A stretch of DNA of 64,000 bases from contig NZ_RYDL01000011.1 in assembly GCF_003968755.1 (NCBI RefSeq), positions 16,949-80,948 of the forward strand. The letters are read 5' to 3'. The notes beneath the pieces were generated by a model. The model made no database searches, was not told the DNA's origin, and saw only the letters and a program-made list of their open reading frames with translations. Positions within the stretch are counted from its first letter, which is position 1, and each line of letters begins with the position of its first letter. This document shows positions 37,504 through 52,384 of this stretch, one piece after another. This DNA is from Flavobacterium sp. RSP15 (GTDB taxonomy: Bacteria > Bacteroidota > Bacteroidia > Flavobacteriales > Flavobacteriaceae). The position numbers and the translations under genes are program-made.

Positions 37504-37645
37504 TAGCCCAGATAGTAATGGAAATCCTTTCTAGTCCTGAACTTTTTTCAGGACTAGAAAGATTGCAATGGATAGCTGGATATGGCTCCAAAAAAAATTG
37601 AGCAAATGAAACAATAATTGAGATTGTTTCGTTCCTCGCAATGAC
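37504..37645 (+). repeat. composite palindromic repeat, copy 1 (nrdB-nrdA spacer)
   Basis: Module A is 37504-37589: it opens TAGCCCAGATAG, includes GGAAATCC, a perfect 14-bp hairpin (37528-37541 with 37547-37560), GATTGCAATGGATAGCTGGA, and ends GGCTCC. Module B is 37621-37645, AGATTGTTTCGTTCC then TCGCAATGAC. Two relatives occur at 40116-40331 (inverted) and 52253-52356. The rest of 37367-37700 holds no gene. Confidence 0.85.
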
Positions 37646-37700
37646 TAACAAATAACGAAAAACAGCAAAGGGATTTTCTGTTTTAAAAACCAACAAAAGT

Positions 37701-40115
37701 ATGTACGTAGTAAAAAGAGACGGGCACAAAGAGCCTGTAATGTTCGACAAAATCACAGATAGAATTAAAAAACTATGTTATGGTTTGAATGATTTGGTTG
37801 ATGCCGTAAAAGTCGCAATGCGAGTAATTGAAGGGCTTTATGATGGAGTTTCTACGTCAGAGTTAGATAATTTAGCAGCCGAAACTGCGGCGTCAATGAC
37901 TATTGCGCATCCTGATTATGCACAGTTGGCAGCGAGAATTGCAATTTCGAATTTGCATTCCAATACAAAAAAATCATTTTCGGAAACAATGAACGATATG
38001 TTTCATTATGTAAACCCTAGAAATGGACAAAATGCACCTTTGTTATCAGAGGAAGTGCATCAAGTGATTATGAAAAATGCGGAGTTTTTAGATTCCCATA
38101 TTATATACAATAGAGATTTTAACTACGATTATTTTGGTTTTAAAACCTTGGAAAGATCATATTTGCTTAAAATAAATGGCAAAATAGTGGAGCGTCCGCA
38201 ACACATGTTAATGCGTGTTTCGGTTGGGATCCACTTAGATGATTTAGATTCGGTGATTGAGACATACGACTTAATGTCGAAAAAATTCTTTACGCATGCA
38301 ACGCCTACATTATTCAATGCGGGTACTCCAAAACCTCAGATGTCTTCTTGTTTCCTTCTGGCGATGCAAGACGATAGTATTGACGGGATCTACGATACGT
38401 TGAAACAAACGGCAAAAATCTCGCAATCAGCTGGCGGTGTTGGACTTTCTATTCACAATGTAAGAGCAACAGGTTCTTACATTCGAGGCACAAACGGTAC
38501 GTCAAACGGAATTGTTCCGATGTTGCGTGTTTTTAATGATACGGCACGTTATGTAGATCAAGGTGGTGGAAAACGTAAAGGAAGTTTTGCAATATACATC
38601 GAAACGTGGCATGCAGATATTTTCGATTTCCTAGACTTAAAAAAGAATACCGGAAAAGAAGAAATGCGCGCCAGAGATTTGTTCTTTGCCATGTGGACGT
38701 CTGATTTATTTATGAAACGAGTTCAAGAAGATAGTTACTGGACGTTGATGTGTCCTAATGAATGTCCGGGATTGTATGATGTGTATGGTGAAGAATTTGA
38801 AGCCATGTACATTGATTACGAGAAACGTGGAAAAGGTAGAAAAACCATTAAAGCGCATGAACTTTGGGAGAAAATTCTAGAATCGCAAATCGAAACCGGA
38901 ACGCCTTACATGTTGTATAAAGATGCCGTCAATAGAAAATCAAACCAGAAAAATTTGGGGACGATTCGTTCTTCGAATTTGTGTACCGAGATTATGGAAT
39001 TTACATCCAAAGATGAAATTGCAGTTTGTAATCTAGCTTCTCTTTCCTTGCCGATGTTTGTTTCTAATGGAAAGTTTGACCATGAATTGATGTATACCGT
39101 TACAAAACGGGTAACTAGAAACTTAAATAAAGTAATCGATAGGAATTATTATCCGGTAATAGAAGGGGAAAATTCTAATAAACGCCACAGGCCAATTGGT
39201 CTTGGAGTGCAAGGATTAGCCGATGCTTTCATTATGTTGCGTATGCCGTTTACGAGCGATGAGGCTAAAAAACTGAATCAGGAAATTTTTGAAACATTAT
39301 ACTTTGCTGCGGTAACCGCATCGATGGAAATGGCCAAAGAAGAAGGGCCTTATTCGACATTTAAAGGCTCTCCAATTTCTCAAGGAGAATTCCAATACAA
39401 TTTGTGGGGAATGAAAGATGAGGAATTATCTGGTCGTTGGGACTGGGCTTCCTTGCGAAAAGAAGTGATGGAACACGGAGTGAGAAACTCGTTGTTAGTG
39501 GCGCCAATGCCAACGGCTTCTACATCACAAATTTTGGGTAACAACGAAGCATTCGAACCCTATACTTCTAATATTTACACCAGAAGAGTCCTTTCGGGAG
39601 AATTTATTGTGGTAAACAAACACTTGTTGCACGATTTAGTGGAGCGTGGTTTGTGGAACGAAACATTGAAACAAGAATTAATGCGAAATAACGGTTCGGT
39701 TCAAGACCTGAATATTCCGCAAGACTTGAAAGAATTGTACAAAACAGTTTGGGAAATGTCGATGAAAGACATTATCGATATGTCCCGTCAGCGTGGATAT
39801 TTTGTGGATCAATCCCAATCATTGAACTTGTTTATGCAAAATGCCAATTATTCTAAATTGACATCAATGCATTTCTATGCATGGCAATCCGGATTGAAAA
39901 CGGGAATGTACTATTTAAGAACAAAAGCTGCGGTGGATGCGATTAAATTTACATTAAACAATGATAAAAAAGCAGAGCCAATCGAAATCAAAGAGCAATC
40001 AATCGCTGTTCCTGCAGTCGCTGAAGCAGTAGAAATGACTTCGGATGAATACAGAGCCATGCTCGAATTGTCTAAAAATGCAGGTCCGGATGAGTGTGAA
40101 ATGTGTGGTTCTTAA
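37701..40115 (+). CDS. nrdA: ribonucleotide reductase class I, large subunit (alpha)
   Basis: Catalytic subunit that reduces ribonucleoside diphosphates; cytosolic, 804 residues. An ATP-cone regulatory domain is at about 1-90 ([17 protein letters not shown]). Active-site residues: the first redox cysteine in SSCFLLAM, the N-x-C-x-E triad NLCTEI, and the [11 protein letters not shown] loop. Redox-active cysteines end the protein (DECEMCGS). The stop codon TAA is followed with no gap by repeat module B. The gene is bracketed by inverted copies of the composite repeat. Confidence 0.96.
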
Positions 40116-40331
40116 GTCATTGCGAGGAACGAAGCAATCTCCTAATCAGACCATATTGTTGATGTCAACAAAGAAGTTTTAAAACAAAAAGGCAGTTATT
40201 GTAATGATAACTGCTTTTTTTGGAGCTATCTACTTCGTCAGTTCGCTTCGCTCGTGTCCCGCTTTCCGTTGCAATCTTTTTATTCACCAAAAAAAGGTGA
40301 ATAAAAAGGATTTTCACTTTAATCGGGGCTA
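40116..40331 (-). repeat. composite palindromic repeat, copy 2 (after nrdA, inverted)
   Basis: Read on the minus strand. Module A is 40331-40222: it begins TAGCCCCGATTAAAGTG, contains AAATCC, a perfect 13-bp hairpin (40276-40288 with 40296-40308), GATTGCAACGGAAAGC and ends AGCTCC. Module B is 40140-40116, AGATTGCTTCGTTCC then TCGCAATGAC. The nrdA terminator lies between the modules. Order and orientation of A and B are the same as in copies 1 and 3. Confidence 0.85.
40190..40220 (+). terminator. terminator after nrdA
   Basis: GGCAGTTAT pairs with ATAACTGC-type bases across a short loop, followed by a T run at 40214-40221. It lies between the two repeat modules. Confidence 0.75.
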
Positions 40332-40371
40332 AAACACCAAGATTTAACAGTAATATTTGTAAATAATTCAC

Positions 40372-40379
40372 TATATTTG
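40372..40379 (+). promoter_or_regulatory. -7 promoter element of the RDD gene (TATATTTG)
   Basis: Perfect TAnnTTTG 51 bp before the start of the RDD protein gene. No TTG at 17-23 bp upstream. Confidence 0.5.
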
Positions 40380-40430
40380 AGATAGTTATTAGCCTTGAAG
40401 ACTTTTTTATAATAATCAAAACGATAAAAA

Positions 40431-40925
40431 ATGGAAAATAAAAAATTTACTGTTACAGATGATTTATTAGCTTCCAAAAGCCAGCGTCTCCTGAATCTAC
40501 TTATCGATATATTGATTATTTATATTATAGCAATAAGTATTGTCGCTACCATTAATATAATTGGAGATACAACAAACAGTTATGGGGCATCGAATTGGGT
40601 TTCATCATTAAGTTTGATTGAAAATTTATTCTTTGGACTTATTATTTTGTTTTTTTACTATGTATTTACGGAGATGTACTTTTTCAGAACCTTCGCTAAG
40701 TATTTTACCAAAACGATTGTAGTACGAGTTGATGGTTCCAAACCTAATACCAAAAACTTTATGATACGAGCAGTATCCCGTCTAAATCCGATGGACCCTT
40801 TTTCATTTCTTGGTAAGACAGAAAGGGGTTTGCACGATACTTTATCAGCAACTTATGTGGTAAAAAAACACGAGTTTGCCGCGAAAATTAAAATGTTTGT
40901 TCCATCGGATCAAATTGGAGTATAA
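40431..40925 (+). CDS. RDD family membrane protein
   Basis: Small inner-membrane protein of 164 residues. The RDD domain has the first span with RLLNLLIDILIIYIIAISIV (residues about 19-38) and a second near 65-85 (FFGLIILFFYYVF). The motif continues with GKTERGLHDTLSATYVV towards the C-terminus. Role unknown; some family members have been linked to ion exchange. Single gene with its own promoter. Confidence 0.82.
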   Translation: MENKKFTVTDDLLASKSQRLLNLLIDILIIYIIAISIVATINIIGDTTNSYGASNWVSSLSLIENLFFGLIILFFYYVFTEMYFFRTFAKYFTKTIVVRVDGSKPNTKNFMIRAVSRLNPMDPFSFLGKTERGLHDTLSATYVVKKHEFAAKIKMFVPSDQIGV

Positions 40926-40951
40926 TTCTAGTTCTGAAAGTAATGATTCAT

Positions 40952-40959
40952 TAGTTTTG
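40952..40959 (+). promoter_or_regulatory. -7 promoter element of the amidotransferase gene (TAGTTTTG)
   Basis: TAnnTTTG match 20 bp before ATG 40980. It gives a leader of roughly 15 bases. Confidence 0.5.
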
Positions 40960-40979
40960 TAGAATCTGGACGAGACAGT

Positions 40980-41675
40980 ATGAGTAAAAAATTAAATATC
41001 CATTGCTTACAGCACGTTCCTTTTGAAGGTCTGGGTTGTATAGAGAATTGGATTCATGAGCACGGGCATTCCCTTTCATATTCCACATTATACCATAATC
41101 CGAAATTTCCAAATCTTGATACGATAGACGCCTTGATTATCTTAGGCGGACCCATGAGTATTCATGACGAAGCCAAATTCCCTTGGCTAAAAGACGAAAA
41201 AGTATTCATCAAATCCGCAATTGACCGGCGAAAAAAAATAATTGGAATCTGTTTGGGAGCACAATTAATTTCAAATGTGTTGGGAGGAAATATTACGGAC
41301 AATGAGCAAAAAGAAATTGGCTGGTTTCCGGTTTCAATTTTAGATTCAAATGTTGCAATACTTAATGGTTATCCAAAATCATTTTCTGTTTTTCACTGGC
41401 ATGGAGAAACGTTTTCAATTCCTGAAAATGCTATTCGCTTAATGGAATCAGAAGCCTGCGCAAATCAAGCTTTTTTATATAATGATCAAGTAGTGGGACT
41501 TCAATTCCATTTAGAAGTAACGGATGCCGCTATGAAAAAAATGGCTTTTCATGAGCAATCAGAATTAGTAAAAGACACTTATGTTCAAACCTATGATGAG
41601 ATCGTAAGTAATACTACATTTATAAAAGAAAATAATCAACTTATGTTTTCGCTTTTAGATAATTTGTTTAAATAG
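40980..41675 (+). CDS. class I glutamine amidotransferase-like protein
   Basis: Cytosolic protein of 231 residues with the GATase-1 fold, as in the glutaminase half of GMP synthase, but free-standing. The nucleophile Cys91 is in IIGICLGAQLIS; the remaining triad His and Glu are in GLQFHLEVT (near residues 176-178). An early motif ALIILGGPMSIHDE forms the oxyanion region. It probably hydrolyses glutamine or a gamma-glutamyl compound; the partner or substrate is unknown. Ends at a terminator. Confidence 0.87.
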   Translation: MSKKLNIHCLQHVPFEGLGCIENWIHEHGHSLSYSTLYHNPKFPNLDTIDALIILGGPMSIHDEAKFPWLKDEKVFIKSAIDRRKKIIGICLGAQLISNVLGGNITDNEQKEIGWFPVSILDSNVAILNGYPKSFSVFHWHGETFSIPENAIRLMESEACANQAFLYNDQVVGLQFHLEVTDAAMKKMAFHEQSELVKDTYVQTYDEIVSNTTFIKENNQLMFSLLDNLFK

Positions 41676-41696
41676 AAGCAGATTCTTTTTTAAAAC

Positions 41697-41729
41697 AAAA
41701 CCTAGTAAATTGCGGATCTACTAGGTTTT
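41697..41729. terminator. terminator between the amidotransferase gene and metE
   Basis: AAAACCTAGTA pairs with TACTAGGTTTT around an 11-base loop, with T runs both ways. It serves two convergent genes. Confidence 0.85.
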
Positions 41730-41758
41730 TATTTTAGTGCTAACCTGAATTCAGGTTG

Positions 41759-44083
41759 TTAAACGATTGCAATGTTTGCTACAGCAATTCTCATCTTTTG
41801 AGCTGCGGCTACCATTTCGATTAAAGCCTTTTTAGTTTCGTCCCAATGACGGGTTTTTAAACCACAATCTGGATTGACCCAAAGTTGGTCAACAGGAATC
41901 ACTGCTGAAGCTTTTTCTAATAGCTTCACCATTTCGGAACTGGCAGGAACACGAGGCGAGTGAATGTCATACACGCCAGGTCCTATTTCGTTTGGATAAT
42001 TGAAATCGGCGAAAGCATCCAGTAATTCCATTTGCGAACGCGAGCATTCTATAGTGATCACATCGGCATCCATATCGGCAATATTCTGTATGATGTCATT
42101 GAATTCGCTGTAGCACATGTGGGTATGGATTTGGGTATCATCTTGTACACCACTTGCGGCAATTCTAAACGCTTTTACAGCCCAATCCAAATAGGTTGCC
42201 CATTCTTCTTTACGTAAAGGCAATCCTTCTCGAATGGCCGGTTCGTCAATTTGAATAATCTTTATTCCTGCCTTTTCTAAGTCGACTACTTCATCTCTAA
42301 TCGCCAATGCAATTTGGGTACAGGTTTCCGCGCGCGACTGATCGTTACGGACAAAGGACCACTGCAAAATAGTCACGGGACCGGTTAGCATTCCTTTTAC
42401 CCATTTTGGCGTAAGCGATTGTGCAAAGGCTGACCATTTCACAGTCATTGGGTTTGGACGTGAGACATCGCCATAAATAACTGGAGGTTTCACACAACGG
42501 CTGCCGTAACTTTGTACCCAGCCGTTTTTGGTAAACGTAAATCCGTCTAATTGCTCTCCAAAATATTCCACCATGTCATTGCGTTCAAATTCTCCGTGAA
42601 CCAATACGTCAATGCCAGTTTCTTCTTGAAAGCGAATCGTTTCTTCGGTTTCTTTTTGGAGTAAATCATCATATTGTTGTGGGCTTAATTCGCCTTTTTT
42701 GAACTTTGCTCTCCAGCTGCGGACTTCGGTAGTTTGTGGAAAAGAACCAATAGTAGTAGTTGGGAATAACGGAAGATTCAACACGTCTATTTGTTTTTTT
42801 CTTCTAATTTGAAACGGATTTTCTCTTTGATCATCACCAATTGCAATGCTGGCAACCCGATTTTTCACCGCATTATTATGGATTAATTTTGATGTTTTTC
42901 TGTTTTCGTTGGCAATAGTATTTTCTTCAAAACGGATAGAATTATTGATGTCTATTTCATTCAAAGCAAAATATTTTAGTAAAACGATCTCTTCTGTTTT
43001 TTGTTTGGCAAAAGCCAGCCATTGCTTGACCTCAGGAGTTAGTGTTGCGTTGTTCGTTTCTAAATCTAAATCACATGGCGAGTGAATCAGGGAGCACGAT
43101 GGTGCAATTAAGATTCTGTTTTCGCCAAGTGCGTCAGTTGCTTTCTGAATAAGGGCTAACGATTTTTTGAAATCATTTTTCCAAATATTTCTACCATCTA
43201 CAACACCAAGGGAAAGACTGACAGTATTAGACAATTGTCCCGATTCTAAGATGTCATCCAATTGCGAGTGACAACGGACTAAATCCAAATGTAAAGTATG
43301 AACAGGTAGCGCAAGAACGGTTTCAAGATTTTCGCCAAAGCAATCGAAATAGTTTGCCAGAATTAATTTGATTTTAGGGAAACGTTTGTTTATTTCGGAG
43401 TAAACATAAGTTATAGCATTTCTTTCTTTGTCAGTTAGATTCAAAGCCAAAAACGGTTCGTCAAATTGGATCCATTCCACATTTTCATTTTCCAGTTTTT
43501 GAAGGATTTCAAAATATACCGGTAGCAATTTATCGATAAGTTCTATTCTATGAAAACCTTCTTCTTTTTCTTTTCCAAGAAGTAAATAAGTAACAGGCCC
43601 TATAAGTACCGGTTTTGTTGTAATTCCTAAAGCATTAGCTTCTTTGAATTCATCTATTATTTTTTCGGAGAATAATTTGAATTCTTGATCTTTTGTGAAT
43701 TCTGGTACGATGTAATGGTAGTTGGTGTCAAACCATTTTGTCATTTCCATGGCGACCACATCTTGTCCTTCTTTCTGCGAACCTCTAGCCATGGCAAAAT
43801 ACAAATCGATATTGGAGTTTGTTTTGGCTAATTCTTGATAGCGCTTAGGAATAACACCCAAGGTAAGTGATAAGTCCAGTACTTGATCGTAAAACGAAAA
43901 GTCATTTGAAGGGATTAAATCGATTCCGAACTCCGCTTGTAATTGCCAGTTTTCTTTTCGGATAGTAGTACCTACAGCCAAAAGTTCGTCTACTGAAATT
44001 TTTCCTGCCCAATACGATTCACAGGCTTTTTTTAATTCTCTGTTGCTACCAATTCGCGGGTAGCCAAGATTGTTTGTTAGCAT
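41759..44083 (-). CDS. metE: cobalamin-independent methionine synthase
   Basis: Transfers a methyl group from methyl-tetrahydrofolate to homocysteine without vitamin B12; cytosolic zinc enzyme of 774 residues. Both barrels are complete: N-terminal NLGYPRIGSNRELKKA and C-terminal catalytic half from about 440 (FPTTTIGSFPQTTEVR). Zinc ligands are in HTHMCYSEF and in WVNPDCGLKTR. It is preceded by a cobalamin riboswitch on the same strand, so it is expected to be shut off when B12 is available. Confidence 0.96.
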   Translation of the reverse strand: MLTNNLGYPRIGSNRELKKACESYWAGKISVDELLAVGTTIRKENWQLQAEFGIDLIPSNDFSFYDQVLDLSLTLGVIPKRYQELAKTNSNIDLYFAMARGSQKEGQDVVAMEMTKWFDTNYHYIVPEFTKDQEFKLFSEKIIDEFKEANALGITTKPVLIGPVTYLLLGKEKEEGFHRIELIDKLLPVYFEILQKLENENVEWIQFDEPFLALNLTDKERNAITYVYSEINKRFPKIKLILANYFDCFGENLETVLALPVHTLHLDLVRCHSQLDDILESGQLSNTVSLSLGVVDGRNIWKNDFKKSLALIQKATDALGENRILIAPSCSLIHSPCDLDLETNNATLTPEVKQWLAFAKQKTEEIVLLKYFALNEIDINNSIRFEENTIANENRKTSKLIHNNAVKNRVASIAIGDDQRENPFQIRRKKQIDVLNLPLFPTTTIGSFPQTTEVRSWRAKFKKGELSPQQYDDLLQKETEETIRFQEETGIDVLVHGEFERNDMVEYFGEQLDGFTFTKNGWVQSYGSRCVKPPVIYGDVSRPNPMTVKWSAFAQSLTPKWVKGMLTGPVTILQWSFVRNDQSRAETCTQIALAIRDEVVDLEKAGIKIIQIDEPAIREGLPLRKEEWATYLDWAVKAFRIAASGVQDDTQIHTHMCYSEFNDIIQNIADMDADVITIECSRSQMELLDAFADFNYPNEIGPGVYDIHSPRVPASSEMVKLLEKASAVIPVDQLWVNPDCGLKTRHWDETKKALIEMVAAAQKMRIAVANIAIV

Positions 44084-44192
44084 TTTGTTGCTTTTTAAAT
44101 GATGAATAAATCAATTAAAAGCTCTTGATGCATTTCAGAATGCTTGTTAGAGATGAAAAGTAGAAAGGAAAATACGTTGCAAAAGAGAAATG

Positions 44193-44225
44193 CACAATAA
44201 AGCATAAAGAGTCATGCTTATTGTG
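44193..44225 (-). promoter_or_regulatory. hairpin in the metE leader, candidate expression platform
   Basis: CACAATAAAGCAT (44193-44205) pairs with ATGCTTATTGTG (44214-44225), with one bulge. It lies between the cobalamin aptamer and the metE start. It has no strong T run, so control may act on translation or through an alternative pairing. Confidence 0.45.
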
Positions 44226-44279
44226 TTCAGAACGCACCATACCTGACTGTTGCTTCAAATCGCGAAAGCATTGTCAATT

Positions 44280-44453
44280 CGATAAAAGGCAGGTCTCCTG
44301 ACTTGTAACATTTTTATCATCCTTCCCATTTGCCATTGGCATACAGTGGATCGTATTTCAGATAAAAACTTTTTGTGTTACTTACAGTTGCGCGACAGTT
44401 CGTGATTTACACACGATTCCCTATTAATCTACAGTTAAGTAAAACCCTTATCG
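44280..44453 (-). ncRNA. cobalamin riboswitch aptamer upstream of metE
   Basis: On the minus strand the conserved pieces occur in order: P1 arm CGATAA (44453-44448), TAGGGAATC, GCGCAACTGTAAGT, CCACTGT followed by AAATGGGAAGG, and the B12 box AAGTCAGGAGACCTGCC (about 44304-44288), closed by TTATCG (44285-44280). These match the cobalamin riboswitch consensus. It is read before metE and should lower metE expression when adenosyl- or methylcobalamin is bound. Confidence 0.93.
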
Positions 44454-44490
44454 GTTGATGAAGAAATAAATTAAGAACTTAAATTAGATG

Positions 44491-44498
44491 CAAAAGTA
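44491..44498 (-). promoter_or_regulatory. -7 promoter element for the riboswitch-metE transcript (TACTTTTG)
   Basis: Minus-strand TAnnTTTG located 37 bp before the aptamer P1 arm. It predicts a leader of about 400 bases in front of metE. Confidence 0.55.
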
Positions 44499-44622
44499 AC
44501 ACTAATCCTTTAAATATTTTTTCGATAGGTTTATTAATTTGTTATATTTAGGATATTGCACTAATAGGATCCGACACTTTAGATTTTTTATATAAACTAA
44601 ATCATACCTGACTTTATTTCAC

Positions 44623-44652
44623 TTGTTAATAATTCTATTTCTGCTATCTTTG
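44623..44652 (+). promoter_or_regulatory. promoter of dgt, full consensus
   Basis: TTG at 44623-44625, exactly 19 bp, then TATCTTTG at 44645-44652: the Bacteroidota housekeeping promoter form. The start codon is 20 bp further on. Confidence 0.85.
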
Positions 44653-44672
44653 GAAATAAATTTTAAAAAGGA

Positions 44673-46019
44673 ATGATGCACTGGGAACAACTTTTATCAC
44701 TAAAACGACAAGGAGACAAAGGCAAAAGATTACGGATAGAACAAGATGACACCCGATTGGGTTTTGAGGTGGATTACGACCGTATTATCTTCTCGGCTGC
44801 TTTCAGGAGTTTACAAGATAAAACACAAGTTATTCCGTTGTCAAAAACTGATTTTGTACACACCAGATTGACGCACAGTTTAGAAGTTTCTGTAGTGGGA
44901 CGTTCATTAGGGCGATTGGTGGGTAAGAAAATCATCGAGAAATATCCGCATTTACAAGAAGTGCATGGCTATCACATGAATGATTTTGGGGCTATAGTTG
45001 CCGCTGCATCATTGGCTCATGATATTGGGAATCCGCCTTTTGGGCATTCCGGTGAGAAAGCAATTGGAGAATATTTTTCCATTGGAAAAGGACAACAATA
45101 CAAAGACCAGCTCACTGCAAAAGAATGGCAGGATTTAATTGATTTTGAAGGGAATGCGAATGGTTTTTCGGTGCTGACGGCTAGTCGTCCTGGTATTGAA
45201 GGCGGACTTCGAATATCCTACGCAACTCTTGGGGCTTTTATGAAGTATCCTAAAGAAAGTTTACCCAAAAAACCAACCAAAGACATTGCCGACAAAAAAT
45301 ATGGTTTCTTTCAAACGGATAAAGCTTTTTTTCAAGATGTGGCTTTAGATATGGGATTGATTCCAAATAAAATAGGAAGCGATATTGGTTTTGAAAGACA
45401 TCCCTTGGCGTATTTAGTCGAAGCGGCAGATGACATTTGTTATACCATTATTGATTTTGAAGACGGAATCAATTTAGGATTAGTTTCCGAAGATTTTGCC
45501 TTGGAATATTTAATAAAATTGGTGAAAGACAGCATTGATACTTCAAAATACAAGACTTTAGAAACCAAAGAAGATAGAATAAGTTATTTGCGCGCTCTGG
45601 CAATTGGAAGTTTAATCAATGATGCCGTAAAAGTATTTGTCGAAAATGAAGTGCTGATCCTGAATGGCAAATTCCCGTATGCCATAATGGATAAAAGCAA
45701 ATACAAAGCGCAGATGGGCGATATTATCAAAATAAGTGTGGATAATATTTACCAAAGTCGGGAAGTCATTGAGAAAGAAATCGTAGGCTACCAGATTATT
45801 CAAACCTTGTTGGATAAATTTATAACGGCTTTCAATAATAAATTTGATGGAAATGCATCTAATTACGACTCTTTAATTCTGAAAATGTTGCCTGAAAAGC
45901 ATCATTTGGAAAAAGAAAATTTATACGGAAGATTATTACATATTTGTCATTTTATTTCTTTACTGACAGATGGAAATGCGTTATTGTTTTATAAAACAAT
46001 TACTGCTGTTAAAGATTAA
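44673..46019 (+). CDS. dgt: deoxyguanosinetriphosphate triphosphohydrolase (dGTPase)
   Basis: HD-domain enzyme of 448 residues that releases triphosphate from dGTP or other dNTPs, balancing the nucleotide pool. Metal ligands: RLTHSLEVS (His near 69) and the HD pair in AASLAHDIGNPPFGHSGEKA, with the final Asp in LVEAADDICYTI. The start context AAAGGAATGATG allows ATG 44673 or 44676; the first is used. It has its own clear promoter and is divergent from the riboswitch-metE unit. With nrdA/nrdB nearby, several dNTP-pool genes cluster here. Confidence 0.92.
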   Translation: MMHWEQLLSLKRQGDKGKRLRIEQDDTRLGFEVDYDRIIFSAAFRSLQDKTQVIPLSKTDFVHTRLTHSLEVSVVGRSLGRLVGKKIIEKYPHLQEVHGYHMNDFGAIVAAASLAHDIGNPPFGHSGEKAIGEYFSIGKGQQYKDQLTAKEWQDLIDFEGNANGFSVLTASRPGIEGGLRISYATLGAFMKYPKESLPKKPTKDIADKKYGFFQTDKAFFQDVALDMGLIPNKIGSDIGFERHPLAYLVEAADDICYTIIDFEDGINLGLVSEDFALEYLIKLVKDSIDTSKYKTLETKEDRISYLRALAIGSLINDAVKVFVENEVLILNGKFPYAIMDKSKYKAQMGDIIKISVDNIYQSREVIEKEIVGYQIIQTLLDKFITAFNNKFDGNASNYDSLILKMLPEKHHLEKENLYGRLLHICHFISLLTDGNALLFYKTITAVKD

Positions 46020-46041
46020 CAATTGTCTACTAATCATTAAT

Positions 46042-46072
46042 TTGTTATTGTAGATTAAAAAAATTAGATTTG
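46042..46072 (+). promoter_or_regulatory. promoter of the M36 protease gene
   Basis: TTG at 46042-46044, a 20-bp spacer and TAGATTTG at 46065-46072. This fits the Bacteroidota promoter form. Confidence 0.7.
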
Positions 46073-46109
46073 TTTTCAGATTTTATCATTGATGAATTAA
46101 TAGATTTTT

Positions 46110-48767
46110 ATGAAAAAAATTATATTTTTTTTAGTTTTTTTAACGAATTTTTTTGCTTTAGCGCAATCGAATCCTTTAATTATTCAACGTTATTTAAATA
46201 CTCCGAATGCTAAAATTAATGTTTCGAAAAGCGATTTTCAGGATTGGGTAATACAAAGCGATGGTGGAGCGACCAGCTCCGGAATACAAAATTGTTATGT
46301 AGTGCAACGTTATAAAGGTATTGAAATCTTTAGGGCAGTTTCTAATTTTTCAATACAGAATAGTGAAGTTATTGATGTTCAAAAACGAATAGTTGATGGT
46401 GTTTCTAAAAAAGTAAATACAACCAAGCCTTCATTATCGGCAGTAAATGCTCTGACTAAAGCGTATTCGCTCTTAGGCATGAAAGCCGATGAAATTTTCA
46501 CTGTTATAGAAAATAAAGAAGCTCATAAATTTAAAATAAGCAATGGGTTAGGCATTCATGAGCCAGTCACTGCTAATTTAGTTTTTCATCAATCCAGTAA
46601 TGGTAAGTTAATTTTGGCGTGGGATTTTACCATTTATACACGCACTCATGACCATATTTGGAGCGTGAGAATTGACGCCACCGATGGGGGACTGTTAGAA
46701 AAAAATGATTTTGTTATTTCTTGCAGCTTTGATCATAATAAAGCAATCACTCATTCCCATGAGTCTTGGGCAAATTCATTTGACTCCAGTTACAAACAAA
46801 TTTTTTCGGCCTCTCCAATGCAGACAGCAAGTGGTTCCTACCGAGTGATACCATTCAATTTTGAAAGTCCCAGCCATTCTGCTTTTCAACTTGTTTCGAA
46901 TCCAGCGAACAGCAATGCATCTCCATTTGGCTGGCATGATGTTGATGGTGTGGCGGGACATGAATTTACGATAACCAGAGGAAATAATGTATGGGCTAAA
47001 GAGGATTTTGGCAGCACTAATTCAACTTCAGGTTATAGCCCTTCAGGTGGAGCATCGCTACTTTTTGATTTTCCCTATGGCGGTACAAATGTACAGGCAT
47101 CAACCTATATAGACGCGGCAATTACGAACCTTTTTTATATGAATAATGTCATGCATGATGTTTGGTATCAATATGGTTTTGATGAAGCAAATGGAAATTT
47201 TCAAGCGAATAATTACAGTCGTGGCGGAAAAGAGACGGATCAAGTTAATGCTGATGCACAAGATGGCTCATTAGTGGTACCCATGAGTTTAAATAATGCT
47301 AATTTTTCAACTCCGGTGGATGGGAATAGCGGAAGAATGCAGATGTTTCTATGGGACCGAGGTCCAGAAATTAAGCCAATTATTGTAAATTCACCATCAA
47401 GTATTGCTGGAAGTTATGTAGCAAGACAAAACTCCTTTAACCCAGGACGTGTTGATTTGCCTGTCGCTCCCAATTTCCTGCAATCTGATGTAGTGCTCTA
47501 CTTAGATAGTACGGGCGGCACCTCCCAAGGGTGTGTAGCACCTTCTAATGCTGCGGCAATGAGTGGGAAAATTGTCATTTTAAGAAGAGGAAATTGTACG
47601 TTTGCAGTAAAAGTAAAAGCGGCCCAAAATGCAGGGGCTGTTGCTGTAATTGTTGTTAATAATGTTACTGGAGATTTAATTATGTCAGGAGCTGATGAAT
47701 CAATTACCATACCTGCCATAAGTGTTACTCAGTTCATTGGGGAGAATATTATAACCCAGATGCAGACTCAAACCGTGAATATAAAAATTCAATTAGAGGC
47801 TTCTTCTTTCATAAATTCAGATGGTGATTTCGATAATGGGATTATTGCACACGAATATGGTCATGGAATTTCTACTCGTCTGGCCGGTGGGAGCAATAAC
47901 TCCAGTTGTTTGAATAATACGGATCAAATGGGAGAAGGCTGGTCTGATTGGTTTGCATTAATGATGCAAATTAAACCGGGTGATGTTAGTGGAGCAAGAA
48001 GAGGAATAGGGACTTTTGTTTCTTCACAAGCCACAGACGGCAGGGGAATACGAGATTTTCAGTATTCTACGGACAGAACGATTAATCCAATGACATACGC
48101 CAGTACCAATAATTATCAGTTTATTGACGCAGATAATGTATCAAAAACCTCCGTACACGGGGTAGGTTCCGTTTGGGCTACGATGCTGTGGGATTTAACG
48201 TGGGCTTATGTCAGTAAATATGGTTTTGATAATAATAAATATACAGGATCAGGCGGGAATAATAGAATTATGCGAATTGTATTAGATGGAATCAAATTAC
48301 AAGCTTGCAGTCCTACTTTTGTGGATGCAAGAAATGCTATTATAGCCGCAGATCAGGCAATAACAGGCGGTAAGGATTACTGCTTAATTTGGGAAGTTTT
48401 TGCTGCCAGAGGTCTTGGGGTTAATGCATCTGCCGGAGATAGAAATATAGGCAATGATCAATCGGAGGATTTTACAAGACCCGCATCAGGACCAAATTGC
48501 GCCTTAGCGGTAGACAACTTTGAGAGTGATGTGATGCGTGTATTTCCAAACCCATCCAAAGGGCCAATAACAATTAAAATTGATCAATACTCAGGGAGGG
48601 TAAATATCCAAGTAATAGATCTTAACGGACGAGTGGTTTATGATGTTAAAAACCAAGAATTCAGTAGAGCAAAATCAATTGATTTAAGTGCATTGGCAAC
48701 CGGGATTTATATATTGGATATAAAAGGGGAAAATTTACATTACGTTGAAAAAATAATTAAAAAATGA
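46110..48767 (+). CDS. secreted M36 (fungalysin) metalloprotease with T9SS sorting domain
   Basis: Secreted zinc protease of 885 residues. Order: signal peptide about 1-18 (FFLVFLTNFFALAQ); FTP-like propeptide to about 230; M36 catalytic region with an inserted PA domain (IVILRRGNCTFAVKVKAAQ, about 490-510) and the zinc motif IAHEYGHGISTR (about 580-590) with a glutamate in MGEGWSDW as third ligand; and a T9SS type A sorting domain at about 805-885 (VFPNPSKGPITIKI, ATGIYILDIKG, KIIKK). It is expected to be exported through T9SS and anchored at the surface or released to degrade proteins. Confidence 0.93.
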   Translation: MKKIIFFLVFLTNFFALAQSNPLIIQRYLNTPNAKINVSKSDFQDWVIQSDGGATSSGIQNCYVVQRYKGIEIFRAVSNFSIQNSEVIDVQKRIVDGVSKKVNTTKPSLSAVNALTKAYSLLGMKADEIFTVIENKEAHKFKISNGLGIHEPVTANLVFHQSSNGKLILAWDFTIYTRTHDHIWSVRIDATDGGLLEKNDFVISCSFDHNKAITHSHESWANSFDSSYKQIFSASPMQTASGSYRVIPFNFESPSHSAFQLVSNPANSNASPFGWHDVDGVAGHEFTITRGNNVWAKEDFGSTNSTSGYSPSGGASLLFDFPYGGTNVQASTYIDAAITNLFYMNNVMHDVWYQYGFDEANGNFQANNYSRGGKETDQVNADAQDGSLVVPMSLNNANFSTPVDGNSGRMQMFLWDRGPEIKPIIVNSPSSIAGSYVARQNSFNPGRVDLPVAPNFLQSDVVLYLDSTGGTSQGCVAPSNAAAMSGKIVILRRGNCTFAVKVKAAQNAGAVAVIVVNNVTGDLIMSGADESITIPAISVTQFIGENIITQMQTQTVNIKIQLEASSFINSDGDFDNGIIAHEYGHGISTRLAGGSNNSSCLNNTDQMGEGWSDWFALMMQIKPGDVSGARRGIGTFVSSQATDGRGIRDFQYSTDRTINPMTYASTNNYQFIDADNVSKTSVHGVGSVWATMLWDLTWAYVSKYGFDNNKYTGSGGNNRIMRIVLDGIKLQACSPTFVDARNAIIAADQAITGGKDYCLIWEVFAARGLGVNASAGDRNIGNDQSEDFTRPASGPNCALAVDNFESDVMRVFPNPSKGPITIKIDQYSGRVNIQVIDLNGRVVYDVKNQEFSRAKSIDLSALATGIYILDIKGENLHYVEKIIKK

Positions 48768-48786
48768 TCGTACAAATTTTAAAGCC

Positions 48787-48812
48787 CTGAAAAAATTTTT
48801 CAGAATTTTTTT
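48787..48812. terminator. terminator between the convergent M36 protease and DUF3078 genes
   Basis: CTGAAAAA pairs with TTTTTCAG, followed by a T run at 48806-48812. The stem is AT-rich and weak. Confidence 0.5.
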
Positions 48813-49845
48813 AGAACAAATATTGTATTCCAACACCTATAGCTTGCCGTACTTGTACTTTTGGGCCTTCAGTGACTTGAATTCCCGCTATTTCTCTTTT
48901 TGATTTAATGTCATCATCATAAATAATATGTGCGCCAATATTCGCTTTTACGTACTGGTTTACCACTAATTCAAATTGGAGGTCGTAATCGATATCTATG
49001 TTGCCAAAATGATTCACATAATCAGAATATAAACTGAGGCGATTTTCTAAATGAATATTTTTAAAAATTTCTTTTTTCAGATGCCCCGTAAATAAAAATC
49101 CGAGCTCTGTTCTGGATTTTTCTCCTTTTTCGATCAAATTTCCGTTCAGATCGTAAATGGCTTTAGTGACACCAAAAGCACCTTGATTCGCTAATCTTTG
49201 ATCTAAAACCAAGGTTGTTTTAAATGTAAATGGGGAAATATAAAACGTTCTTTTTTTCTCTTTATTTATATTCTCAGCTCCTATTCCCATGAAGGCATAA
49301 GCGGGTGCAAAGGGCTTTGATATTGCAGTTTGAGTATTTGGATAAGAATAACCATTAGTGAACTGCGTATTGAAATTTAATTTTGCGGAATGGTACCAAT
49401 TCGAAAGGGTGTCTTTTCGATAACCAAATGTTGAGTTTAATAAAAAGGCATCATCCGTTTTTCTTACTTCGATGCGGTCTTGTTTGTTTAAACCATATCG
49501 GATTAAAAGTTCATTAGTCCAATTGTAATTGCTTCGGTTGTACGTTCTCAGAAATTTTCCGTTGAACAACCCGGAAACGGAGCTTGTTCCTCCGGGACTC
49601 CAGTTGATAAAAGCGACTTCGGATATGTCAAATCCTAAACTATTTTTTTTTGTCCAATAGGATAAAGGAACATATGGTTTCTTAGTTCGTATATTGACTA
49701 CTACGGTCAGCGGTCTCTTTACTTTTGTGAGTGTTGTTACAGGTTCAAGTGCAGTTTTCATACTACTGACTGTTGCTTCTTGGGAAAAACTATTTATAGA
49801 AATCAAAAATAAAAAAAGTAAAAATGCAGTAGGGAGTAATTTCAT
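48811..49845 (-). CDS. DUF3078 secreted/outer-membrane protein
   Basis: Exported protein of 344 residues with a signal peptide (about 1-21, LFLFLISINSFSQ). The body (YWTKKNSLGFDISEVAFINWSPGGTSSVSG) is the DUF3078 signature, a Bacteroidota family of unknown function. Alternating strands and the aromatic end IGVGIQYLF suggest a small outer-membrane barrel. It lies 39 bp downstream of dxs in the same direction and could share its transcript, although the two roles are unrelated. Confidence 0.82.
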   Translation of the reverse strand: MKLLPTAFLLFLFLISINSFSQEATVSSMKTALEPVTTLTKVKRPLTVVVNIRTKKPYVPLSYWTKKNSLGFDISEVAFINWSPGGTSSVSGLFNGKFLRTYNRSNYNWTNELLIRYGLNKQDRIEVRKTDDAFLLNSTFGYRKDTLSNWYHSAKLNFNTQFTNGYSYPNTQTAISKPFAPAYAFMGIGAENINKEKKRTFYISPFTFKTTLVLDQRLANQGAFGVTKAIYDLNGNLIEKGEKSRTELGFLFTGHLKKEIFKNIHLENRLSLYSDYVNHFGNIDIDYDLQFELVVNQYVKANIGAHIIYDDDIKSKREIAGIQVTEGPKVQVRQAIGVGIQYLF

Positions 49846-49884
49846 TACGGGGGAGATTAAATTTAAACGTGCAAAATAATTATT

Positions 49885-51666
49885 TTAATAGCTTGAAAAA
49901 AGGATTTCAAGACTTTTAACGTCAATTTTGCAATATTGTTGTAATTCAGCCACTGTTCCCTGTTCAATAAATTCGTCAGGAATGCCTAATATTTTTATTT
50001 TTGAAGTGTAATTATTTTGGGAAGCAAATTCAAGTATAGCACTCCCAAAACCGCCATTTACAACGCCGTCTTCTAGCGTGATTATAGTTGAAAATTCAGT
50101 AAAAATGGTATGTAGTGCTTTTTCGTCTAATGGTTTGACAAATGAAAAATCATAATGGGCAATGGTTTCCTGATGGTCTGTCTTGGCTATAGCCAAAGTG
50201 ACATTGTGACCAATAGTTCCATTTGATAATACTGCGATATGTGTTCCTTTTTTAATACAAATGCTTTCTCCAATTGCTATTTTTTTATACTTTCCCAGAT
50301 GTTGATCTTGCCAATTCTGAATCACACCGCGACCTCTTGGATAACGGATAGCGATGGGCTGATTCAATCCCAGTTGTGCAGTATAGAGAATGTTTTGAAG
50401 CGCTATTTCGTTCATGGGGGAATAGATAATCATATTAGGAATACAGCGCAAATAAGCAAGATCAAAAACACCGTGATGCGTTGCGCCGTCTTCTCCCACT
50501 AATCCCGCTCTGTCCAAACAGAAAATTACCGGTAAGTTTTGCAGTGCTACGTCATGAATGACTTGGTCGTATGCTCTTTGCAAAAAAGTAGAATAAATAT
50601 TGCAAAATACGATCATTCCTTGTGCCGCCATTCCGGCCGCTAAGGTAACGGCATGTTGCTCGGCGATTCCTACATCAAAGGCGCGTTTTGGGAAAGCTTC
50701 CATCATGAATTTGAGGGAACTTCCCGAAGGCATTGCAGGTGTAATTCCTATTATTTTTTCGTTTTTTCGGGCCAAATCCAATACGGTCAAGCCAAAAACA
50801 TCCTGGTATTTCGGCGGTAAATTCTCTTCTGATTTGATGTGAATTTCCCCAGTTGTAGCGTCAAATTTCCCCGGCGCATGGTATTTAACCTGATTTTCTT
50901 CGGCTTGTTGCAGTCCTTTACCTTTGGTGGTGATGATATGGAGAAATTTTGGTCCTTTTACTTTTTGCAAGCGTTTGAGTTCCTTGATAACCGCAAAAAG
51001 ATTATGCCCGTCAATAGGACCCGAATAATCAAAATTCAATGATTTAATCATGTTGTTCTGCCTCGGATTTTTCCCTTCTTTTACGGCAGTAAGATACTTT
51101 TTTAACGCACCAACGCTCGGGTCAATGCCGATGGCATTATCATTAAGGATCACCAGTAAATTAGCATCAGTAACTCCGGCGTGATTTAATCCTTCAAAAG
51201 CCATTCCTGATGCGATGGAGGCATCTCCAATCACTGCAATATGTTGTTTATCGTATTCGCCTTTCAAATTAGAAGCGATCGCCATTCCTAATGCTGCTGA
51301 AATGGAAGTCGAAGAATGTCCTACGCCAAAAGCATCGTAAATACTTTCACTTCTTTTTGGGAAACCGGAAATACCGCCGAGTTGCCTGTTGGTATGAAAA
51401 TTTTCTCTTCGGCCGGTGAGTATTTTATGTCCGTATGCCTGATGGCCTACATCCCAAACTAACAAATCATTTGGTGTGTCAAACACATAATGCAAAGCGA
51501 TGGTGAGTTCAACAACACCCAAACTGGCCCCAAGATGGCCTTCTTTTGCGGCTACAATATCAATTATGAAATTGCGTAATTCTTGAGCGACCTGAGGAAG
51601 TTGAGCTTCGTCGAGCTGGCGTAAATCGGTTGGATTGTTTATGTTTGAAAGTAAATTATCTGACAT
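49885..51666 (-). CDS. dxs: 1-deoxy-D-xylulose-5-phosphate synthase
   Basis: Thiamine-diphosphate enzyme that condenses pyruvate with glyceraldehyde 3-phosphate, the first step of the MEP isoprenoid route; cytosolic, 593 residues. Conserved blocks: WDVGHQAYGHKILTGR, HSSTSISAALGMA, the ThDP/metal motif GDASIASGMAFEGLNHAG ... NDN, and EQHAVTLAAGMA with the general-base glutamate. It is a little shorter than the E. coli form (620). A -7 promoter element sits only 4 bp before the start codon. Confidence 0.95.
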   Translation of the reverse strand: MSDNLLSNINNPTDLRQLDEAQLPQVAQELRNFIIDIVAAKEGHLGASLGVVELTIALHYVFDTPNDLLVWDVGHQAYGHKILTGRRENFHTNRQLGGISGFPKRSESIYDAFGVGHSSTSISAALGMAIASNLKGEYDKQHIAVIGDASIASGMAFEGLNHAGVTDANLLVILNDNAIGIDPSVGALKKYLTAVKEGKNPRQNNMIKSLNFDYSGPIDGHNLFAVIKELKRLQKVKGPKFLHIITTKGKGLQQAEENQVKYHAPGKFDATTGEIHIKSEENLPPKYQDVFGLTVLDLARKNEKIIGITPAMPSGSSLKFMMEAFPKRAFDVGIAEQHAVTLAAGMAAQGMIVFCNIYSTFLQRAYDQVIHDVALQNLPVIFCLDRAGLVGEDGATHHGVFDLAYLRCIPNMIIYSPMNEIALQNILYTAQLGLNQPIAIRYPRGRGVIQNWQDQHLGKYKKIAIGESICIKKGTHIAVLSNGTIGHNVTLAIAKTDHQETIAHYDFSFVKPLDEKALHTIFTEFSTIITLEDGVVNGGFGSAILEFASQNNYTSKIKILGIPDEFIEQGTVAELQQYCKIDVKSLEILFSSY

Positions 51667-51670
51667 AAAG

Positions 51671-51678
51671 CAAAGGTA
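51671..51678 (-). promoter_or_regulatory. -7 promoter element 4 bp before the dxs start (TACCTTTG)
   Basis: Minus-strand TAnnTTTG whose last base is at 51671, with the dxs ATG at 51666-51664. This predicts a leaderless or nearly leaderless dxs mRNA. Confidence 0.55.
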
Positions 51679-51789
51679 CGATTTGAAATTGTATTTTTAC
51701 ATTTGATAAAAAACTTGTTTTATAAAGAATCACAAAATAAAGCGAAGATTTGCAAAGAACTTAAATATGCGAATTCGCGGACTTATACT

Positions 51790-52233
51790 ATGATAAATCC
51801 TTTCACCGATGAATATTTCATGAAAAAAGCGTTGCAGGAAGCCGAAATGGCTTTTGACAAAGACGAAATTCCTGTTGGCGCTCTAATTGTAATTGATAAT
51901 AAAGTCATTGCTCGAGGTCATAATTTAACCGAATTACTCCATGATGTTACGGCTCATGCCGAAATGCAATCCATAACTGCCGCAGCTAATTATCTTGGCG
52001 GAAAATATTTAATAGGATGCACACTTTATGTTACACTGGAACCTTGCCAGATGTGCGCCGGCGCTTTGTACTGGAGTCAGATTTCGAGAATTGTGTATGG
52101 AGCCACTGATGAAAATAGGGGTTTTGTGAAAATGGGAACACAATTGCATCCTAAAACAACTGTTGTAAAAGGAGTTTTGGCAAATGAAGCTTCGGAGTTG
52201 ATGAAGCGGTTTTTTGTGGAGAGAAGAAAATAA
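51790..52233 (+). CDS. tadA: tRNA-specific adenosine deaminase-like protein
   Basis: Zinc deaminase of 147 residues. The zinc and catalytic motif is THAEMQSI (His, Glu), and the two cysteines are in TLEPCQMCAGALYW. Overall pattern, with MKKALQEAEMAFDKDEIPVGALIV at the start, matches TadA, which converts A34 to inosine in tRNA-Arg. The start ATG 51790 fits the family; a longer in-frame start at 51703 adds an unconserved stretch. Guanine deaminase is a less likely alternative. Divergent from dxs. Confidence 0.88.
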   Translation: MINPFTDEYFMKKALQEAEMAFDKDEIPVGALIVIDNKVIARGHNLTELLHDVTAHAEMQSITAAANYLGGKYLIGCTLYVTLEPCQMCAGALYWSQISRIVYGATDENRGFVKMGTQLHPKTTVVKGVLANEASELMKRFFVERRK

Positions 52234-52252
52234 TTCTATTTACACAAATCTC

Positions 52253-52384
52253 TAGCCCAGATAGCAGTGGAAATCCTTTTCTTTTTTTCTTTAAAAAAGA
52301 AAAGATTGTAACGTATAGCTGGATTAGCTCCAGATTGCTTCGTCCCTCGCAATGACCGCTTGCTTCGAAAAATCTCGCAATGAC
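52253..52384 (+). repeat. composite palindromic repeat, copy 3 (after tadA)
   Basis: Module A 52253-52331: starts TAGCCCAGATAGCAGTGG, then AAATCC, a perfect 12-bp stem (52276-52287 with 52293-52304), GATTGTAACGTATAGCTGGA and ends AGCTCC. Module B follows with no gap at 52332-52356 (AGATTGCTTCGTCCC, then TCGCAATGAC). A second, degraded module B is at about 52358-52384. Confidence 0.85.

Follow-up and report, generated by a model that had tools for sequence, protein, structure and literature searches.

Dispersed Flavo-1 elements of Flavobacterium keep their sites while their paired hairpin tips are replaced

The window analyzed here, a stretch of 64,000 nucleotides from Flavobacterium sp. RSP15 (assembly GCF_003968755.1, contig NZ_RYDL01000011.1, positions 16,949 to 80,948 of the forward strand), carries three full-length matches to Flavo-1 (Rfam RF01705), the family to which cmscan assigns all three repeat copies that a preliminary description of this DNA had located, with their flanks TAGCCC...GCTCC, at the places where we find them (gathering cut-off 42 bits). 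That description had also proposed that conserved edges enclose a swapped, still paired core, and a comparison of the same sites in RSP15 and its relative Flavobacterium xueshanense (G251) displays this swap directly: Flavo-1 elements stay at their sites, and the tip of the central hairpin, alone or with both sides of an internal loop, is replaced by a different paired tip. The features at the three loci, in window coordinates, are as follows.

37504-37589, plus strand: Flavo-1 copy 1 (TAGCCC...GCTCC), 77.2 bits; outer-helix pair A-T (CCCA / GCTGG), internal loop of type a.
37527-37561, plus strand: exchangeable tip hairpin of copy 1, TAGTCCTGAA type, from the fold; other tips occupy this site in other genomes.
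37622-37645, plus strand: module B, pattern match G000:C2:54570-54593.
40116-40139, minus strand: module B, pattern match G000:C2:57064-57087.
40222-40331, minus strand: Flavo-1 copy 2, 77.3 bits; outer pair C-G, longer third arm (GGGACACGAGCG...GATAGCTCC).
40276-40308, minus strand: exchangeable tip hairpin of copy 2 (TTTTTATTCACC/GGTGAATAAAAA), from the fold; F. xueshanense has a different tip at this site.
52253-52331, plus strand: Flavo-1 copy 3, 80.7 bits; outer pair A-T.
52276-52304, plus strand: exchangeable tip hairpin of copy 3 (T-tract, CTTT loop, A-tract), from the fold; the F. xueshanense site has a 52-base TAGTCC palindrome.
52333-52356, plus strand: module B, one base after GCTCC, pattern match G000:C2:69281-69304; absent there in F. 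xueshanense.

Flavo-1 is a branched hairpin: beyond the outer helix come an internal loop, of which there are two types, and the central hairpin or tip, and a third arm, which varies, lies between AGCyGGA and GCTCC. The outer helix comes either as TAGCCCxGAT ... AGCyGGA ... GCTCC, in which x and y co-vary, or in a second form, GCGTGAGGGAT ... AGCCCGACC ... GGTCACGCCC. In RSP15 the x-y pair is T-A 21 times, C-G 19 times, A-T 16 times and G-C four times, and it is of Watson-Crick type in 60 of 62 readable copies of this genome and in 64 of 73 in F. xueshanense. The internal loop is RAAATCC/GATTG (type a) or RCATCC/GATA (type b), with its two sides of matching type in nearly all parsed copies (68/70 in RSP15, 93/95 in F. 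xueshanense). Some copies bear an additional arm, D, a hairpin of about 47 bases (ACTTCACT...GGAGTTCAGTGAATTTCATTT). Of 12 pattern matches to D (L364-L373, L375 and L145, the last in RSP15), 11 were placed by eye inside Flavo-1, one of these being a degenerate copy; D occurs in either arm and is preceded by an exact GATT in seven of the 11. F. xueshanense has no D at L145, L146, L147 or L153. When the window copies are folded as single sequences, the tip forms in all three, and the minimum-energy folds contain the outer helix in copies 2 and 3, not in copy 1.

Far from being confined to these three copies, the family has 89 matches in the RSP15 genome (E<=0.001), 76 of them over the cut-off, and 110 in F. 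xueshanense, which is the closest genome by the open reading frame at 37701 and has 100 over the cut-off. Flavo-1 over the cut-off is found in 25 of 40 relatives, RSP15 included, with at most 89 candidates per genome scored. RSP15 and F. xueshanense each carry some 90-110 of these DNA elements, scattered over intergenic sites and with no preferred orientation relative to genes. Among the 128 of 189 copies from both genomes that have enough flank, three lie inside an open reading frame, and the 124 with a gene on each side show gene orientations (54/31/22/17) like those of control gaps (92/70/44/34; chi-square p 0.78).

For the same-site comparison, RSP15 copies were matched by their flanks only to the 100 F. 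xueshanense copies over the cut-off. At least one flank identifies a counterpart for 67 of the 89 RSP15 copies (65 distinct) and both flanks do so for 52, which leaves 15 of the 67 matches resting on a single flank; two F. xueshanense copies are each paired with two RSP15 copies. Fifty-four site pairs were parsed, and 11 of the 65 distinct pairs were dropped (the parser failed on 19/89 RSP15 and 5/100 F. xueshanense copies). Across these 54 pairs the similarity of the tips is bimodal, with 23 tips replaced (similarity below 0.75), 27 kept (0.83 or above) and four intermediate, and the both-flank pairs considered separately (n=45) give 17, 24 and four, respectively. The base of the hairpin diverges at the rate of the flanks: its identity averages 0.88, as does that of the flanks, versus 0.71 for random pairs, with random tips at 0.60. 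Flank identity is itself nearly equal around replaced (88.1%) and kept (88.5%) tips, and the strictest cut, which places the tip within the random 95% and the base above it, retains 17 of the 54 pairs. Both genomes have the same outer pair at all 18 replaced sites where it can be read, at 16 of 18 such kept sites and at 40 of 45 readable sites overall, where a fraction of 0.26 is expected; it is unreadable in 5/23 replaced and 9/27 kept pairs.

What is exchanged can be delimited from the internal loop. In the 23 replaced pairs, the loop type was retained in 15 and switched on both sides together in seven, with one odd case; a single continuous hairpin is therefore exchanged, and its edges fall at different points within the conserved blocks, a pattern that copying would give and one fixed cut site would not. 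By reading, the old tip is gone from the replaced pairs and not interrupted. The suggestion that a copying mechanism preserves structure is supported by this replacement of tips at the same site.

A deeper sampling is available for the surroundings of the open reading frame at 37701, for which 30 loci (RSP15 included) have Flavo-1 by pattern at the site of copy 1 in 21 cases and at that of copy 2 in 11. At the former site, where the pattern cuts some tips early and those rows were read by eye, the element occurs in more than one base version, and one base, TAGCCCAGATAGTAATG, is found in six genomes with four kinds of tip: the short TAGTCCTGAA, a long perfect form of it, T-tract/CTTT/A-tract, and CACGC/GCGTG. 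Conversely, one tip can be followed across sites. The 52-base palindrome around TAGTCCTGAACTTGTTTCAGGA has an exact half-match at seven F. xueshanense sites, each of which is a Flavo-1 tip, and the six of these sites that are comparable in RSP15 have another tip or a shorter form there. When GTDB genomes were scanned once for exact matches to 25 bases of this TAGTCC tip, 33 stretches came up, all of them Flavo-1 tips from Flavobacterium (seven from F. xueshanense itself, 26 from 12 other genomes); they span both outer forms and both loop types and contain a perfect 44-base palindrome in 24 cases.

Throughout these exchanges the cores remain paired. Those of the window are mutually unrelated in sequence and fold into stems of 15, 16 and 15 bp in copies 1, 2 and 3, counts that include, for copies 2 and 3, the pairs beneath a bulged C; the earlier view of unrelated but paired cores stands, its own stem counts having been 14, 13 and 12 bp. 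In the 74 of 89 RSP15 copies that could be parsed, pairing exceeds chance, as the mean core fold is -11.3 kcal/mol versus -3.9 kcal/mol when halves are taken from different copies (the parser over-extends some cores, and only its energy contrast is used). A contrast in stem length, 12.1 versus 5.3 bp, is biased upward, since it draws only on the 51/89 RSP15 copies with a stem of at least 8 bp. That the cores are perfectly paired, as had been stated for the window, does not extend to the family: an uninterrupted stem of at least 11 bp is present in 35/89 RSP15 and 58/100 F. xueshanense copies, the others being mismatched or shorter, and in 129 of 165 parsed tips from both genomes at least 80% of the mirrored positions pair, many tips being imperfect. 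Neither outcome that the preliminary description had named as fatal to its reading, a genome with just the three copies or a majority of other cores that do not pair, was observed. Among kept tips (20 equal-length pairs) there are nine mirrored double changes, where independence would yield 1.0, next to 13 one-sided ones.

The reading that we favor, with moderate confidence, is that dispersed Flavo-1 copies exchange entire hairpins by a process of copying that uses short conserved anchors. Such copying would act at the level of DNA, by ectopic gene conversion or template switching, and its substrate would be single-stranded, hairpin-forming DNA at replication forks. One contiguous hairpin would be copied, mostly from another Flavo-1 copy, and the putative anchors are the short conserved blocks that flank it (ATCCTTT / AAAGATTG, or blocks further out); copying between Flavo-1 copies is favored because the best-studied tip is confined to Flavo-1. 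Pairing would survive each exchange because the hairpin would be copied whole, and the tips could then be tuned by local template switching and by ordinary compensatory change. Repetitive extragenic palindromic (REP) sequences are said, to go by the title of a 1988 article by Higgins, to evolve by gene conversion, with conversion between dispersed palindromes; compared with the idea conveyed by that title, the converted piece in Flavo-1 would be a hairpin within a larger element.

Replacement by template switching, one of the origins considered in the preliminary description, is possible in this form, but not as a purely local fold-back, since the incoming tip in most cases bears no relation to the one it replaces and must hence be copied from elsewhere. 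Likewise, replaced tips that share no arm with the old one do not fit a local template switch, an impression gained by reading and not from a systematic count. At the site of copy 1, F. xueshanense has one arm doubled into a perfect palindrome, which, judged from its sequence, could be the outcome of a local switch as in the excerpts of PMC8794818 on the template-switch origin of RNA hairpins. The likeness to that work is that an error of replication produces or maintains a perfect stem at one stroke; the difference is that its focus, in those excerpts, is on local events in one hairpin, whereas the new stems of Flavo-1 are mostly unrelated to the old ones, and one is common to many copies.

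Several observations weigh against the exchange of hairpins by copying, at least as formulated here. By eye, the anchors look shorter than what RecA usually needs. Donors are clear for only some tips, some new tips matching neither genome; in 46 comparisons, a replaced tip was matched better within its own genome 19 times and better in the other genome 12 times, with 15 ties, and exact matches of replaced tips number seven within and four between genomes. The comparison in depth covers one species pair, about 12% diverged in the flanks, in which no event in progress was seen, and the direction of each tip change, that is, which species changed, is not polarized. Clean empty sites and target duplication would mark a MITE; four candidate empty Flavo-1 sites were aligned and none was clean, one being a copy that had lost its 3' half. 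The outer helix appears in roughly half of nine single-copy minimum-energy folds.

An unlikely alternative is that Flavo-1 is a functional RNA whose stem drifts through compensatory mutations, with selection alone preserving its pairing. Flavo-1 is tabulated as a candidate structured RNA of Bacteroidetes in the excerpted text of PMC2864571, and Rfam types the entry as an sRNA gene (small RNA). The excess of compensatory changes in the tips (nine where 1.0 is expected), the outer pair that remains paired in all four Watson-Crick types and the coincidence of several 5' transcribed regions with Flavo-1, reported in the accessible portion of PMC9723704, all agree with this. Drift, however, is difficult to reconcile with bimodal tip similarity, in which 23 of 54 tips are replaced at 88% flank identity, or with an identical 52-base tip at unrelated sites. 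Moreover, the lack of an orientation bias speaks against a strand-specific RNA, and the same portion of PMC9723704 places Flavo-1 matches sense and antisense to transcribed regions, with many outside any, and describes no consistent transcription of Flavo-1. For these two reasons an RNA processing signal, as had been envisaged in the preliminary description, is not upheld either.

We give rather little credence to the view that a REP-associated tyrosine transposase (RAYT), or another IS200/IS605-type Y1 enzyme, mobilizes Flavo-1 or its tip. The enzymes are at hand, as RSP15 has eight Y1 matches (two below the Pfam cut-off) and three RAYTs above the NCBIfam cut-off, and a form-2 Flavo-1 copy lies about 1.1 kb from one of the RAYT genes (L062). 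Three of the eight Y1 genes lie 1.3-1.7 kb from Flavo-1, and three or more within 1.8 kb would arise by chance with p~0.03, although this limit was set post hoc. Y1 enzymes of the IS200/IS605 kind use hairpins between short conserved sequences, and the tip is such a hairpin. Nevertheless, each of the three RAYT genes (L062, L063, L064) has its own, different REP on both sides, and neither Flavo-1 nor module B flanks any of the three RAYTs over the cut-off in RSP15. Three relatives (G004, G011, G012) have 88, 44 and 12 Flavo-1 matches and no match to the RAYT model (E<=0.001), the only Y1 model searched there, and one relative (G030) has RAYTs without Flavo-1; the three may have lost a RAYT. 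The variable edges of the exchanged piece are a further point against such an enzyme. Dispersed, high-copy hairpins are a feature that Flavo-1 shares with RAYT-moved REPs and REPINs, the subject of PMC3116915 by its listing; Flavo-1 differs from these in being branched and modular, in that no cognate RAYT was found and in that, by reading, no GTAG-type tag was seen beside the hairpin, its neighbors being ATCC and GATT or GATA, and what is exchanged is the tip of the element, as opposed to the movement of whole elements. The earlier proposal of a RAYT-moved element is therefore not borne out, and a RAYT seems not to be needed for the exchange.

A more speculative extension of copying, which we consider doubtful, is that Flavobacterium possesses a dedicated hairpin-cassette exchange system, which would cut extruded hairpins and copy from another element, with small GIY-YIG nucleases as partner enzymes. 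It is just as doubtful, on the same reading, that Flavo-1 would be a scaffold with an interchangeable tip, D arm and third arm.

Genes for small stand-alone GIY-YIG nucleases often have palindromic repeats at their sides. CGTC-like tags lie within 300 bases of 14 of 34 such loci (L322, L323, L336-L339, L341, L346, L351, L353, L354, L356, L360, L362), as against 6/143 and 12/241 control genes and 5/21 other genes in the same loci; the tag was chosen after looking, two of 36 loci were left out, and the phylum loci are the best match per genome from 29 genomes. Inverted shared words of 12 bases or more between the two flanks occur at 13 of 32 GIY-YIG loci, a set that includes one low-complexity case and a few related loci, at 7/211 control genes and in 17/992 shuffled pairs. 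By eye, palindromic repeats are also present at the GIY-YIG loci L321, L324 and L155:1-1130. No link between GIY-YIG and REP sequences was found in the open-licence literature searched.

Module B, which the preliminary description had made part of a composite repeat, is a separate repeat, probably a CGTC-type REP, that is a neighbor of Flavo-1 and not a part of it. It has the sequence xGTCATTGCGAGGAACGAAGCAATC and lies 32, 82 and 1 bases past GCTCC in copies 1, 2 and 3. Of its 40 matches in RSP15, 12 form one array (C2:1-1130), and only nine of the other 28 closely follow Flavo-1, being within 112 bases on its 3' side and all in its orientation; at the site of copy 1, F. xueshanense has another palindrome in the place of module B. 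It resembles the CGTC-tagged REPs of PMC3733652, in the excerpts at hand, in its small palindrome, its GTC-type end and its occurrence as inverted pair (L035) and array, and it is by this resemblance that the class is suggested; according to the same excerpts, CGTC REPs have no dedicated transposase.

An encounter of this repeat with a tip bears on the notion, distinctly improbable in our estimation, that each tip is an independent REP inserted into the loop of Flavo-1. Module B lies inside a Flavo-1 tip at one F. xueshanense site (C10:128342, L221), the RSP15 counterpart of which (L035) has an inverted module B pair in the apparent remains of the same element. Furthermore, one of four CAGGGTT palindromes is not within Flavo-1, and neither are two sequences related to the TAGTCC tip that differ from it by three mismatches. 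Insertion, however, would leave the old tip interrupted, whereas in replaced pairs it is gone, and the TAGTCC tip proper is found in Flavo-1 only (33/33 GTDB stretches, 7/7 exact-match F. xueshanense sites). That whole copies disappear and others, bearing different tips, insert at the same hot spot, for which the element in more than one base version at 21 of 30 loci at site 1 could be cited, is highly improbable in view of the outer pair, identical in all 18 readable replaced pairs, and of a base identity that is on average well above random.

The window also contains a cobalamin riboswitch (44271-44464, minus strand, 91.6 bits).

The family itself was known, but we did not find the exchange of its hairpins described before in the open-licence literature: in the accessible text of the papers on Flavo-1 (PMC2864571, PMC9723704, PMC9029176, PMC7682815, PMC3765529) there is no mention of an exchange of tips or of a D arm, nor of two types of loop and two forms of outer helix. 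Since 2010 Flavo-1 has figured as an RNA of unknown function, and the present data favor a DNA-level repeat the tips of which move between fixed sites. Tip exchange would explain how long stems can change completely without loss of pairing, a question posed for structured RNAs in the excerpts of PMC8794818, and it carries a warning that apparent covariation in such families can be a product of copying instead of selection acting on an RNA. With the tip differing between two related species at 23 of 54 compared sites, the exchange is testable with strain collections.

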